Source: Pseudomonadota bacterium (GTDB lineage: Bacteria; Pseudomonadota; Alphaproteobacteria; Kiloniellales; J153). Taken from it: 39,900 nt of DNA. Positions 27,787 to 30,774 of this stretch are shown one piece after another. The notes beneath the pieces were generated by a model. The model made no database searches and had not been told where the DNA came from. It was given only the letters and a program-made list of their open reading frames with translations. The stretch is taken from contig JACZVL010000005.1 in NCBI GenBank assembly GCA_022572685.1, forward strand, positions 1-39,900, given 5' to 3'. Numbering within the stretch: the stretch's first letter is position 1; the number at the start of each line of letters is the position of its first letter. A program made the position numbers and the translations under genes.

Positions 27787-30243
27787 TTACCACCAGGACC
27801 AGAACTCGACCCTGAAAAACCGGACGAACCGCCGGGAAACGATCTCGATCAGGCGCCGGTCGCCGACGTAGATCTTGCCGTAGCCGGTCATCTCCGGCTT
27901 GAGGGCGAGATCGCCGTTTTCGACCTCGGTATTGACCCGGACCACCTTGCGCTTGAGGCCCTCCTCTTCCGCCATGGCGGTGGCGGCGATGGCGGTCACC
28001 ACGCCGGTGAAGCTGCGGCCGGGATAGGCGCGCGCCTTCAGGGTCACTTCCTGGCCCAGGCGGACCTCGCCGATGTCCTTCTCCGAGATCAGGATCTCGC
28101 CGATGGCGGTGCGGTACTCGTGAATCTCGAGGATCAGGTCGCCCCGCTCGACCAGCTCACCGATCTTCTCTTGCGGCTTGGCGGTGGTGACGATGCCGTC
28201 GATCGGGCTGTGGATGACCAGCAGTTCGAGCTGCCTGGCGACGTAGCCGCGTTCGGCCTCGAGCCGCGCAAGCTCCGCCGCCATGGCCTCGATATCCTCG
28301 GGGCGGGAGCCGGCGAGCAGCACGTCGAGCTTGGCCTTCGCTTCCATGATCTCCTGCTCGGCCACCGCCTGGTCCTGGCGCACTTCGGCCAGCTCGTCGG
28401 CCATGGCGACCCGGAGGTCGGCCTGGGCCTCGTCCAGCTCCTTGCCCCGCACGGAGGCCCGCTCCTGGCTCTGGGAGAAATCCTTTTGCGAGATCAGCCT
28501 CTTGTCGATCAGCGGCCGCAGGCGCTTCAACTCCAGGCGGGCGAAGCGCAACTGTTCCTGCGCCTTCTCGACGCCGCTGTGGGCGCGGGCGATCTTCTGC
28601 CGGTTGATGGCGCGGTATTCGGCGTAGCGGTTGCGCGCGTGTTCGAGCCGGGTCTTGGCGGTCTCCATCTCCTGGCGCGTGACCGCGATCTCCTGGGCGA
28701 TGGGTCCGGCCTTGAGGCCCCTGAGATCGGCCTGGGCCTGGCGGACCTGGGCCTCGATCTTGGCCAGCTCCGCGCGTTTCTCCAGGCCCGCCAGGCGGGC
28801 GATGATCTGGCCCGCTTCGACCGCGTCCCCCTCGGCGACCGCGATCTCCTCGATCAGGCCCTCGACCTGGGCCCGCACGTCGGCGTTGTGGGCCGGCAGG
28901 ATGTTGAACTCGCCCGACACCGGCATGTCGATGCGCACGACGATCAGCGCCAGCACGAAGCCGCCGAGGGCCAGCGAATAGACCACCCGGCGCGAGACGG
29001 CTCCGGCGGTATTCTGTGCCAATCCGGCACCCGGGCCGCGCGTGAACAGGCGTTTGAACGGGCCGCGGGACACCAGGAACAGCAGGCCCATGAAGATCAG
29101 GAACCCGGCGCCGTCGTAGTTCTCGATCAAGAAGCCGCCGATGCGCGAGGCGATCCAGAACAGCATCAAAATCGAGAAGAAAAACGCCAGCACGCCGTAG
29201 GTCAGATAGATGCGCCGCTCGCGGGGGCTGACCTCCAGCCTGGGCGCCCGGCGCCAGGACCACAGCGCCTTCACGCGCGACCCCAGGTAGCCGAAGGCGC
29301 GGGCGCGCAGGTTCGGGATCTCCAGCCAGTCGCTCAGCATGTAATAGCCGTCGAGCTTGATCAGCGGCACGAAGTTGAACAGCACCCGGATACCCGAGGT
29401 CCCGATGACCACCAGCGCGATGTAATTGAACAACGTCTCCGGCGCGCTCACGCGCCAGACCAGGACCGACAGCGCCCACAGGAAAAACTCGAAATAGCTG
29501 CCCGCGAAGGTGACCCAGAGGCGCCTGGACTTCTCCGGGAACAGCCAGGCGTCGCTCACGTTGCAGTACAGCCCCGGGTTGAAGAACAGCAGCAGGACGC
29601 CGATCTCGTGAACCTTGCCGCCGAAGTGCTTGCAGGTCAGGCCGTGGGCGAACTCATGCAGCACCGTGGTCAGCAGGATCACGAACCAGGCGACCACCAG
29701 GGTCTCGATGGTGAAGATGTCGCCTATGTCGCGGGCCAGCTCGGCGCCGTTGGCGAGCACCACGCCGAGCGCCAGCAGGATGCTGGCGGCGGACAGGGCG
29801 ACGAAGGCGGGGGTGAAGCAGAAGCGCAGCCGTCCGACCATGCGGTCCAGGAGCGCGTCGGGATCGATGACCTTGTAGCGCAGGTACAGCAGGCTGCCGC
29901 GCAGGCGGCGCCGCTGGGGACCGGCGCCAGCCGCCGTGGCGCGCCGGGAGCCGTCCTCGGCCGCGTCCTCGGGCGGCTCGATCAGCCCGCGTTGCCGCAG
30001 GCTCTCGACGAAGGCGGCCAGGGTGTCGGGGTCCAGCTCCTCGCCGAACTCGGTCTTGGCCGCGGCGCCGATCTCCTCGGATGTGGTCGTGCCGTCGAGC
30101 CGCTCGATGATGAACCACTCGGCCGCGCCGAAGCGGAAGAACCGCTCGCTCGCCAGGTCCTTGACCACGTGGATGACCTCGCCATCGGCCTCCTGGCGGC
30201 TGATGCTCAGATCGCGGCGGAATATGGGACCCGATGCGCTCAC
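27787..30243 (-). CDS. PqqD-like / M50 intramembrane protease / HlyD adaptor fusion
   Basis: An 818-aa three-part protein. Residues about 10-90 form a PqqD-like domain (VVKDLASERFFRFGAAEWFIIERLDG...FVESLRQRGLIE), which in other systems binds RiPP leader peptides. Residues about 140-440 are a site-2-protease (peptidase M50) with zinc ligands H196-E197-F-A-H200 in VLHEFAHG and D298 in LIKLDGYYM, plus about ten transmembrane helices. The C-terminal part (450-818) is HlyD-like: biotinyl-lipoyl hybrid halves around long coiled-coil helices (AELAKIEAQVRQAQADLRGL...) and a beta-barrel. GTG 30243 is chosen since AAAGG lies upstream; a TTG at 30300 would add 19 residues. Its neighbour is a small leader-bearing peptide, so it probably cleaves and exports that peptide (inference). 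Confidence 0.88.
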   Translation of the reverse strand: MSASGPIFRRDLSISRQEADGEVIHVVKDLASERFFRFGAAEWFIIERLDGTTTSEEIGAAAKTEFGEELDPDTLAAFVESLRQRGLIEPPEDAAEDGSRRATAAGAGPQRRRLRGSLLYLRYKVIDPDALLDRMVGRLRFCFTPAFVALSAASILLALGVVLANGAELARDIGDIFTIETLVVAWFVILLTTVLHEFAHGLTCKHFGGKVHEIGVLLLFFNPGLYCNVSDAWLFPEKSRRLWVTFAGSYFEFFLWALSVLVWRVSAPETLFNYIALVVIGTSGIRVLFNFVPLIKLDGYYMLSDWLEIPNLRARAFGYLGSRVKALWSWRRAPRLEVSPRERRIYLTYGVLAFFFSILMLFWIASRIGGFLIENYDGAGFLIFMGLLFLVSRGPFKRLFTRGPGAGLAQNTAGAVSRRVVYSLALGGFVLALIVVRIDMPVSGEFNILPAHNADVRAQVEGLIEEIAVAEGDAVEAGQIIARLAGLEKRAELAKIEAQVRQAQADLRGLKAGPIAQEIAVTRQEMETAKTRLEHARNRYAEYRAINRQKIARAHSGVEKAQEQLRFARLELKRLRPLIDKRLISQKDFSQSQERASVRGKELDEAQADLRVAMADELAEVRQDQAVAEQEIMEAKAKLDVLLAGSRPEDIEAMAAELARLEAERGYVARQLELLVIHSPIDGIVTTAKPQEKIGELVERGDLILEIHEYRTAIGEILISEKDIGEVRLGQEVTLKARAYPGRSFTGVVTAIAATAMAEEEGLKRKVVRVNTEVENGDLALKPEMTGYGKIYVGDRRLIEIVSRRFVRFFRVEFWSWW

Positions 30244-30349
30244 CCGATACCCTTTCCGGTGGCGGAAAACCCGTGACGGCGCGTCGAACGGCCGCCCCAA
30301 GCTATGGGAAAAATATCAATTCGATGGGGTAATGGCGGGCCGCGCGGCG

Positions 30350-30387
30350 GGCGAGGGGGGAGATCGCTTCACCGAAGCGACCTCGCC
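30350..30387 (-). other. Hairpin between peptide gene and transporter gene
   Basis: TCGCTTC (30364-30370) and GAAGCGA (30374-30380) form a perfect 7-bp stem with an ACC loop. GGCGAGG (30350-30356) and CCTCGCC (30381-30387) extend it after a seven-base bulge. No T-run follows on either side. It lies in the 173-base gap before the PqqD-M50-HlyD gene and could act as an attenuator or RNA-stability element, letting the peptide be made in excess over its transporter. Confidence 0.55.
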
Positions 30388-30416
30388 ATCCCTACAAGCG
30401 AAATAAGTCAGCAGGA

Positions 30417-30611
30417 TTATGGCGCGCCGTGGGAAACGCCAGCATTTGAGAAGTTAGCCGAATGATTGGCGTTAGAAGCCTTGTTTGGCAGATCAGTTCT
30501 GTCATCGGAGCCCGCAGCGTCGTCGGAGTTACTGATGGTCAAATCCAAACCCACGATACTTGGTGCAATCCGCTCTTCCAAGTCCTCGATTTTCAGGATC
30601 ATCTTCTTCAT
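30417..30611 (-). CDS. LEERIAPS-tagged small peptide, putative exported precursor
   Basis: A 64-aa peptide. Its N-terminus MKKMILKIEDLEERIAPS is amphipathic and contains the LEERIAPS tag (residues 11-18), an arrangement like the LEPRxLL tag of planctomycete secreted proteins. After it come a short hydrophobic part (IVGLDLTIS) and a polar Asn/Ser/Asp-rich tail without Cys (NSDDAAGSDDRTDLPNKASNANHS...). It has no transmembrane helix and is not a normal Sec signal. A GGGGAG ribosome binding site is ten bases before the ATG. The base composition is lower in G+C than its neighbours. It sits just upstream of, and on the same strand as, the PqqD-M50-HlyD gene, which makes it the most likely substrate. 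Its final activity is unknown. Confidence 0.75.
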   Translation of the reverse strand: MKKMILKIEDLEERIAPSIVGLDLTISNSDDAAGSDDRTDLPNKASNANHSANFSNAGVSHGAP

Positions 30612-30766
30612 GTTATGACATCTCCCCTAAATAGTTCGGCTCCGCGCCAGCACGACCTCCTGCCCACCAATCCACGGAACCGTTGCTCCATTGGTACACG
30701 ACTTTAATCCGCTGTGGTAACCTTATTCGCGTCACAAAGACGTGAAAAATGAAGGTGTTACCCGCT

Positions 30767-30774
30767 ATGGTTAA
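30767..30774 (-). promoter_or_regulatory. TTAACCAT half-site, possible CtrA box
   Basis: Minus-strand TTAACCAT equals the eight-base CtrA half-site of alphaproteobacteria. It lies about 160 bases before the LEERIAPS peptide start in an AT-richer stretch. A match of this length may be chance; it is noted because the region upstream of the peptide (30612-30814) holds no other gene. Confidence 0.25.

Follow-up and report, generated by a model that had tools for sequence, protein, structure and literature searches.

LEERIAP-tagged small peptides pair with one clade of PqqD-M50-HlyD fusion proteins and probably mark a widespread peptide-secretion system

The DNA analyzed here (the window: 39,900 nucleotides, positions 1 to 39,900 of contig JACZVL010000005.1, assembly GCA_022572685.1, from an alphaproteobacterium of the Kiloniellales) carries a small open reading frame (ORF) with an N-terminal LEERIAPS tag upstream of a single gene that joins a PqqD-like RRE domain (the recognition element of ribosomally synthesized and post-translationally modified peptides, RiPPs), an M50 (site-2) protease and an HlyD-type adaptor. 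The pairing of the tag with this fusion is established bioinformatically. We consider it likely that the small ORF is the precursor of a secreted peptide and that the fusion is its dedicated recognizer, cutter and exporter in a single polypeptide. Together they probably constitute a widespread peptide-secretion system, found in about a dozen phyla and apparently undescribed.

The first line of evidence starts from the tag. Because short, variable peptides are out of reach of direct tblastn, we used a degenerate pattern, hydrophobic-E-x-LEERIAP, and scanned the DNA of 84,980 species genomes blind to neighbours, counting a fusion as present when a protein within the locus stretch (<=8 kb) matched the window M50 domain at E<1e-10. 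The scan returned 113 loci, 56 of which have a short ORF tagged near its start. A fusion is present in 34 of these 56 and in one of the other 57 (Fisher p about 7e-13, a value that takes the loci as independent, which they are not fully), and that single locus, L085, itself encodes a tagged protein of 198 residues. The 34 loci contain 47 tagged ORFs, every one on the fusion strand and 42 of them upstream of the fusion; the median distance from tag to M50 domain is about 710 nt. The loci come from Acidobacteriota, Verrucomicrobiota, Planctomycetota, Gemmatimonadota, Nitrospirota and Nitrospinota, and further from Myxococcota, Rokubacteria, Eisenbacteria, Zixibacteria and Betaproteobacteria, with Bacteroidota added via L117/L182. 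There are 22 further short-tag genomes in which no fusion lies in the locus stretch; 19 of them encode one elsewhere (G658, G664 and G674 do not), and a fusion is found in 9/9 genomes known only for long tagged proteins. Background fusion rates in three phyla, at E<=1e-60 and with seeds included, are 12/149, 12/95 and 2/145. For the 37 tag genomes the threshold was looser, 1e-20; 30 of them also pass 1e-60.

The second line of evidence starts from the fusion. Blind to the tag, 24 fusions were found in these three phyla, of which 21 were testable (L215, L216 and L218 have no upstream sequence and were left out). A tagged small ORF lies within about 1.5 kb of 12 of the 21, and of 10 of the 11 that belong to the window's own clade, with the tag variants LEARIAP, LEQRIAP and LEKRIAP represented; part of these 12 loci overlaps the tag scan (for example, L219 is L127). 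The fusions without a tagged ORF belong mainly to other clades (L200-L202, L204, L208-L210, L224), and the tag is absent from 34 of 34 Pseudomonadota fusions (L004-L037). In a tree of the RRE-M50 region with 114 rows, the window sits in a 98-supported clade of 43 fusions from many phyla, 37 of them tagged, and the fusions linked to giant proteins of the LEPR-XLL type fall in a separate 99-supported clade of 30 with no tag. The tag label changes 12 times on this tree, compared with 37 times in shuffles. Contig truncation or a missed start codon accounts for most of the six untagged rows within the window clade, and L205 does carry the tag. PqqD-M50-HlyD fusions as such are common, turning up in 76 of 399 sampled genomes of the window's phylum; the tagged-peptide clade, rather than the fusion architecture, is what is special. 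A first-pass annotation, made from the letters of the window alone, had proposed a leader-guided export system, suggested co-occurrence of tag and fusion as its check, and named fusions lacking a nearby tagged ORF as its refutation. The pairing proved to be conserved across phyla in both directions of search; the proposal withstood the refutation in the window's clade and succumbed to it outside, where the fusions serve giant LEPR-XLL proteins. Candidate conserved small ORFs beside the untagged fusion clades were set aside, the clusters being mostly antisense ORFs of the fusion.

The tagged peptides share a leader and differ in their tails. Among 105 distinct peptides, the leader consensus LxLx[IV]EELEERIAP is nearly fixed: L at -5 (84%), I, V or L at -3 and E at -2 precede a near-universal LE-E-RIAP, after which comes S, G, D or T. 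The fixed letters of the tag are there by construction, because the peptides were collected by it; the conservation of -7 and -5 is not. The leader-like nature of the tag, as originally proposed, is well supported by the co-occurrence and the tree. The tails have a median of 35 residues (23% Gly, 11% Asn, 11% Ser, 10% Pro) and are repetitive and poor in hydrophobic residues, with weak collagen-like matches. Layouts vary between groups. In Gemmatimonadota (L068, L081, L113, L123, L132, L142, L143) the leader is longer and RiPP-like, LTPEQKxxVRxATGK, and just 3-8 amino acids (aa) follow the tag; Zixibacteria peptides (L066, L074, L075, L079) total 21-29 aa, and in both groups the tag is almost C-terminal; and at L206 and L207, arrays of three to four near-identical 31-aa peptides, MAKKSTKKVVKLNVERLEKRIAPTRAAIAMG, lie beside the fusion.

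Near-identical cores recur in different phyla, namely GYEGQPGNQG, NNNPPLNNTNNPGNE / NNNPPLNNTNNPGNEGTGGQVSTG, and GNPGNEVSNG, which suggests a conserved extracellular role; a literature search found no record of studies of GYEGQPGNQG, NNNPPLNNTNNPGNE or GNPGNEVSNG cores. By pairwise codon comparison, purifying selection spans the whole peptide: of 54 codons compared between L065 and L157, 18 have changed synonymously and 1 nonsynonymously, and L059 (Verrucomicrobia) and L117 (Bacteroidetes) differ at 37 synonymous and 9 nonsynonymous of 70, while L098 versus L102 shows weak constraint only. It is improbable, in our view, that the peptide is a regulator of the fusion protease instead of its cargo, with tag binding switching protease or efflux activity and the HlyD part moving some other substrate. 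A single fusion often serves arrays of different peptides, and tails of 3-15 aa in Gemmatimonadota and Zixibacteria leave little cargo, as a regulator would allow; yet conservation of the cores across phyla does not depend on that of the leader, and a single locus can carry several different cores, which is more typical of cargo.

The window pair has the same layout, on one strand, with 173 nt between the small ORF and the fusion gene downstream:

30417..30611, minus strand: 64-aa tagged small ORF MKKMILKIEDLEERIAPSIVGLDLTISNSDDAAGSDDRTDLPNKASNANHSANFSNAGVSHGAP, with leader MKKMILKIEDLEERIAPS and a polar, Ser/Asn/Asp/Gly/Ala-rich tail
30558..30581, minus strand: LEERIAPS tag, residues 11-18 of the small ORF
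30621..30628, minus strand: good to strong Shine-Dalgarno-like sequence AGGGGAGA, 5' of the peptide ATG
27787..30243, minus strand: RRE/PqqD-M50-HlyD fusion, 818 aa, likely GTG start at 30243, stop included

ORF, strand and domain matches thus bear out the tagged 64-aa ORF beside a fusion that the first reading had described. The leader is of full strength (position-specific scoring matrix, PSSM, score about 40). The 64-aa peptide gave no tblastn matches against plasmids and no Pfam or NCBIfam family match; the RNA between the two genes is not more stably folded than shuffled versions of it (z -1.0), and neither a promoter nor a terminator was conspicuous at the pair. Opposite the fusion, the long plus-strand ORFs look like high-GC shadows and were discounted. 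No other tag was found in the window genome. Across 399 genomes of the window's phylum, the window's was the only short peptide with an N-terminal tag that a plain LEERIAP pattern picked out, the rest of the matches being chance-like, and among the sampled genomes of the window's class no other has a short N-terminally tagged ORF.

The fusion protein is organized as follows:

29959..30243, minus strand: RRE/PqqD-like domain, residues 1-95, three strands then helices
29239..29862, minus strand: M50 / site-2 protease domain, about residues 128-335
29644..29658, minus strand: HEFAH zinc motif, residues 196-200; H, E and H invariant in 24 relatives
29341..29355, minus strand: LDGYY motif, residues 297-301; D298 invariant in 24 relatives
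27790..28935, minus strand: HlyD-type periplasmic adaptor, residues 437-818, after the last transmembrane (TM) segment (420-438)

The start was placed at GTG 30243, giving 818 aa, and not at TTG 30300, because aligned relatives begin near ...PKLRSDLVISRQ.... The PqqD Pfam match (E 1.3e-4) falls slightly below the cut-off, and fold comparison confirms the domain. Its AlphaFold model (pLDDT 86) has strands at 13-19, 22-29 and 34-38 followed by helices, which is the RRE order. The best PDB matches by Foldseek are the lasso-peptide RREs TbiB1 (E 4.9e-4) and TfuB1, both solved leader-bound, and a sequence profile also finds PqqD 3g2b and TfuB1 6jx3. The domain therefore has the features expected of an RRE: three strands then three helices, a winged helix-turn-helix and similarity to leader-binding RREs. 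That the PqqD-like domain has a leader-binding fold, as first suggested, is well supported by this comparison. The M50 part combines HExxH in a TM helix with a distal N..P..LDG, as in site-2 proteases. H196, E197, H200, D298 and P293 are invariant in 24 complete relatives and N290 nearly so; the invariance of H196, E197, H200 and D298 upholds the earlier description of the site as active-looking, and the protease is therefore probably active. The adaptor domain is matched by sequence and by fold. Seven hydrophobic TM segments, with basic residues in alternate loops, make a clean positive-inside pattern. By this prediction, the RRE and both catalytic motifs face the cytosol, with HExxH and LDG at the cytosolic-side ends of TM2 and TM4, and the HlyD part lies in the periplasm. 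In the window (27787-27830) and in relatives, a predicted helix at the end of the HlyD part is followed by a conserved RVEFWSW tail, which is unusual for an adaptor.

If the small ORF is a secreted-peptide precursor, its path can be drawn in four steps. The leader LxLx[IV]EELEERIAP would be bound by the cytosolic RRE/PqqD-like domain. The site-2 protease domain, with its active site predicted near the cytosolic face, would then remove the leader by cutting at IAP or immediately behind it. The freed Gly/Asn/Ser/Pro-rich peptide would move to the periplasmic HlyD part, and it may finally leave the cell through an unlinked TolC-type channel. Tag binding, removal by the M50 domain and export through the HlyD part are plausible, being consistent with the predicted topology. 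Several points weigh against this path. Known site-2 proteases mostly cut membrane-embedded substrates, and a TM helix is lacking in the tagged peptides. No linked ATPase accounts for the energy that export would need. TolC is not linked to the window pair, and the only OEP match found in this metagenome-assembled genome, which is 81% complete, is partial and unlinked. The window peptide itself has a third-position GC of 0.60, far under the 0.93 of the fusion, and its tail fits no recurrent core type.

The unique core and low third-position GC, together with the lack of another tag in the genome, are also what would be expected if the window ORF were a chance or decayed relic carrying the tag. 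We hold this to be very improbable: the leader is at full strength, a Shine-Dalgarno sequence precedes it, the neighbouring fusion is intact, and position and strand are exactly like those of 34 other loci. Acquisition from another phylum would be compatible with the absence of a short N-terminally tagged ORF from the other sampled genomes of the class and with the peptide's low third-position GC.

Across 20 neighbourhoods extending up to 19 kb, no gene other than the fusion is conserved throughout, and no ABC (ATP-binding cassette) ATPase, TolC or RiPP enzyme recurs across them. The first-pass annotation had stated that no ABC ATPase lies near the pair, and a domain search extends this to the whole contig, with 88 matches elsewhere in the genome. 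These neighbourhoods bear on whether the peptides are RiPP precursors that are, in the manner of daptides or epipeptides, chemically modified before cleavage by enzymes varying by locus or unlinked, a reading that overlaps with a secreted-peptide precursor and that we regard as possible, if rather unlikely. An RRE together with an M50 domain is a RiPP protease arrangement. A 2-oxoglutarate-Fe(II) oxygenase (PF13759) flanks six loci (L061/L235, L065, L084, L108/L236, L135 and L225, the last from the cultured isolate Pseudogulbenkiania subflava DSM 22618); the double GYEGQPGNQG core is present in 6/6, and no other locus examined has a flanking PF13759, making the oxygenase a candidate tailoring enzyme for this core. 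A 330-aa protein of unknown family after LEARIAP fusions would also fit modification. Set against this, no modifier is conserved across loci, only the fusion recurring in the 20 neighbourhoods, and no candidate modifying gene stands beside the window pair among the ORFs examined, to which daptide tailoring models were not applied.

Two further proteins were noticed. One, of about 330 aa and with no Pfam or NCBIfam match, directly follows LEARIAP-type fusions in Rokubacteria and once lies beside an acidobacterial fusion (L227:9455-10465, L228, L238, L239, L241:3503-4489). The other, of metallo-beta-lactamase fold (MKRNRHLRLSLFTVPELSIGRAPLTPQNSQ...), is on the fusion contig in Rokubacteria, and a very similar N-terminus occurs in Nitrospirae (L226:5785-7332, L244:8616-10000).

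Among known systems, the best family match to the RRE and M50 part is the daptide intramembrane metalloprotease NF041824 (E 2.3e-63 to 2.3e-67, over nearly the whole model), although scores of 214.6 bits for the window and 209-228 for relatives stay under its cut-off of 300. The present system differs from the daptide one in the fusion of its protease to HlyD, in its LEERIAP leader and in that no recurrent modifying genes were found. The YydH/LiaK epipeptide protease (NF058609), an M50 zinc protease acting on a small precursor, matches weakly (E 2.5e-9; 37 bits, with a cut-off of 225) and has no HlyD fusion. TbiB1/TfuB1 and PqqD share the three-strand, helical fold but are stand-alone and deliver leaders to soluble enzymes. 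EmrA, MacA and HlyD are alike in sequence and fold to the adaptor domain; their partners are major facilitator superfamily (MFS) or ABC pumps, whereas here the inner-membrane partner is a protease. The linked ABC ATPase of type 1 (ABC/HlyD/TolC) secretion is not found on the window contig, nor does one recur in the 20 neighbourhoods. TmcP is a site-2-clan protease that removes the leader of a RiPP (TMcin), and loss of active-site residues blocks the product (PMC13252029); it differs in its membrane-embedded precursor and Gram-positive hosts, with no RRE or HlyD fusion reported (PMC13252029).

No description came up in literature searches on the motifs, the cores and the combination of domains; two RRE surveys make no mention of M50 or HlyD, and no Pfam or NCBIfam model covers LEERIAP peptides. 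The original statement that no described system has this architecture holds in the libraries searched for the system as a whole, with the proviso that fusions of this architecture are widely annotated next to LEPR-XLL genes. New, as far as these libraries go, are the family of LEERIAP peptides, its link to a single fusion clade and the idea of one tag shared with LEPR-XLL; site-2-clan removal of RiPP leaders and common PqqD-M50-HlyD fusions are already known.

The LEPR-XLL loci (NF012209) share the three-domain fusion, which there adjoins proteins that begin with a LEPRxLLSAD tag. They differ in cargo of thousands of residues, in the extra HlyD and TolC genes that accompany the giant proteins and in their separate fusion clade. 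The NF012209 model gave no match to LEERIAP or LEPRIAPS sequences, while three LEPR-XLL controls scored 29-36 bits. Small peptides with LEPRIAPS do occur (locus L185), and their sequence is suggestive of intermediates between the LEPR-XLL and LEERIAP tags. Similarity by PSSM is weak: the LEPR site is the best window in 3/4 proteins, where 4, 4 and 30 of 500 shuffles score as well, and in the Methylosinus LEPR protein the best window is not at the LEPR site. From these comparisons, the idea of a single tag in two forms, LEPR-XLL and LEERIAP, is suggestive only.

An N-terminal LEERIAP is also seen on longer proteins, of roughly 500-1500 aa, in planctomycetes and related bacteria (L062, L069, L094, L105, L106, L120, L124, L149, L158, L168). 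The nine genomes checked carry a fusion; five of these fusions were placed in the tree, all with the LEPR-associated type.

Such long proteins, in planctomycetes whose genomes carry LEPR-type fusions, would suit a different role for the tag, as a sorting signal that is not removed, with the M50 domain acting as a holdase or gate and the peptides staying on the envelope as Gly/Asn/Pro-rich matrix or surface elements, a miniature LEPR-XLL form. The sister fusions adjoining giant LEPR-XLL proteins, and the repetitive, hydrophobic-poor, weakly collagen-like tails, point the same way. We nonetheless find this role quite unlikely: the zinc-protease residues are invariant across the clade, which suggests that catalysis is needed, and many products reach only 3-40 residues past the tag.

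Returning to the secreted-peptide precursor, a broader proposal, which we put forward tentatively and at somewhat less than even chances, is that of a distinct secretion class, in which one polypeptide recognizes, cuts and exports without a dedicated ATPase, the cores are common to about a dozen phyla and the LEPR-XLL loci are the giant-protein branch of a general tag-guided pathway. If so, leader recognition, protease and exporter would reside in one protein; many membrane fusions annotated only as HlyD or peptidase M50 would gain a function, as would many small ORFs that gene callers likely miss; and there would be a handle on how giant LEPR-XLL proteins exit the cell.

On the LEPR-XLL side, five plasmids (L033-L037), from Mesorhizobium, Thalassospira, Pseudosulfitobacter, Magnetospirillum and Methylosinus, encode fusions with extra HlyD adaptors. 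Most also encode giant proteins (a LEPR-XLL-type tag was read in 4/5), with TolC in 3/5 and DUF3467 proteins in three. These loci are apparently an undescribed secretion system for giant proteins.

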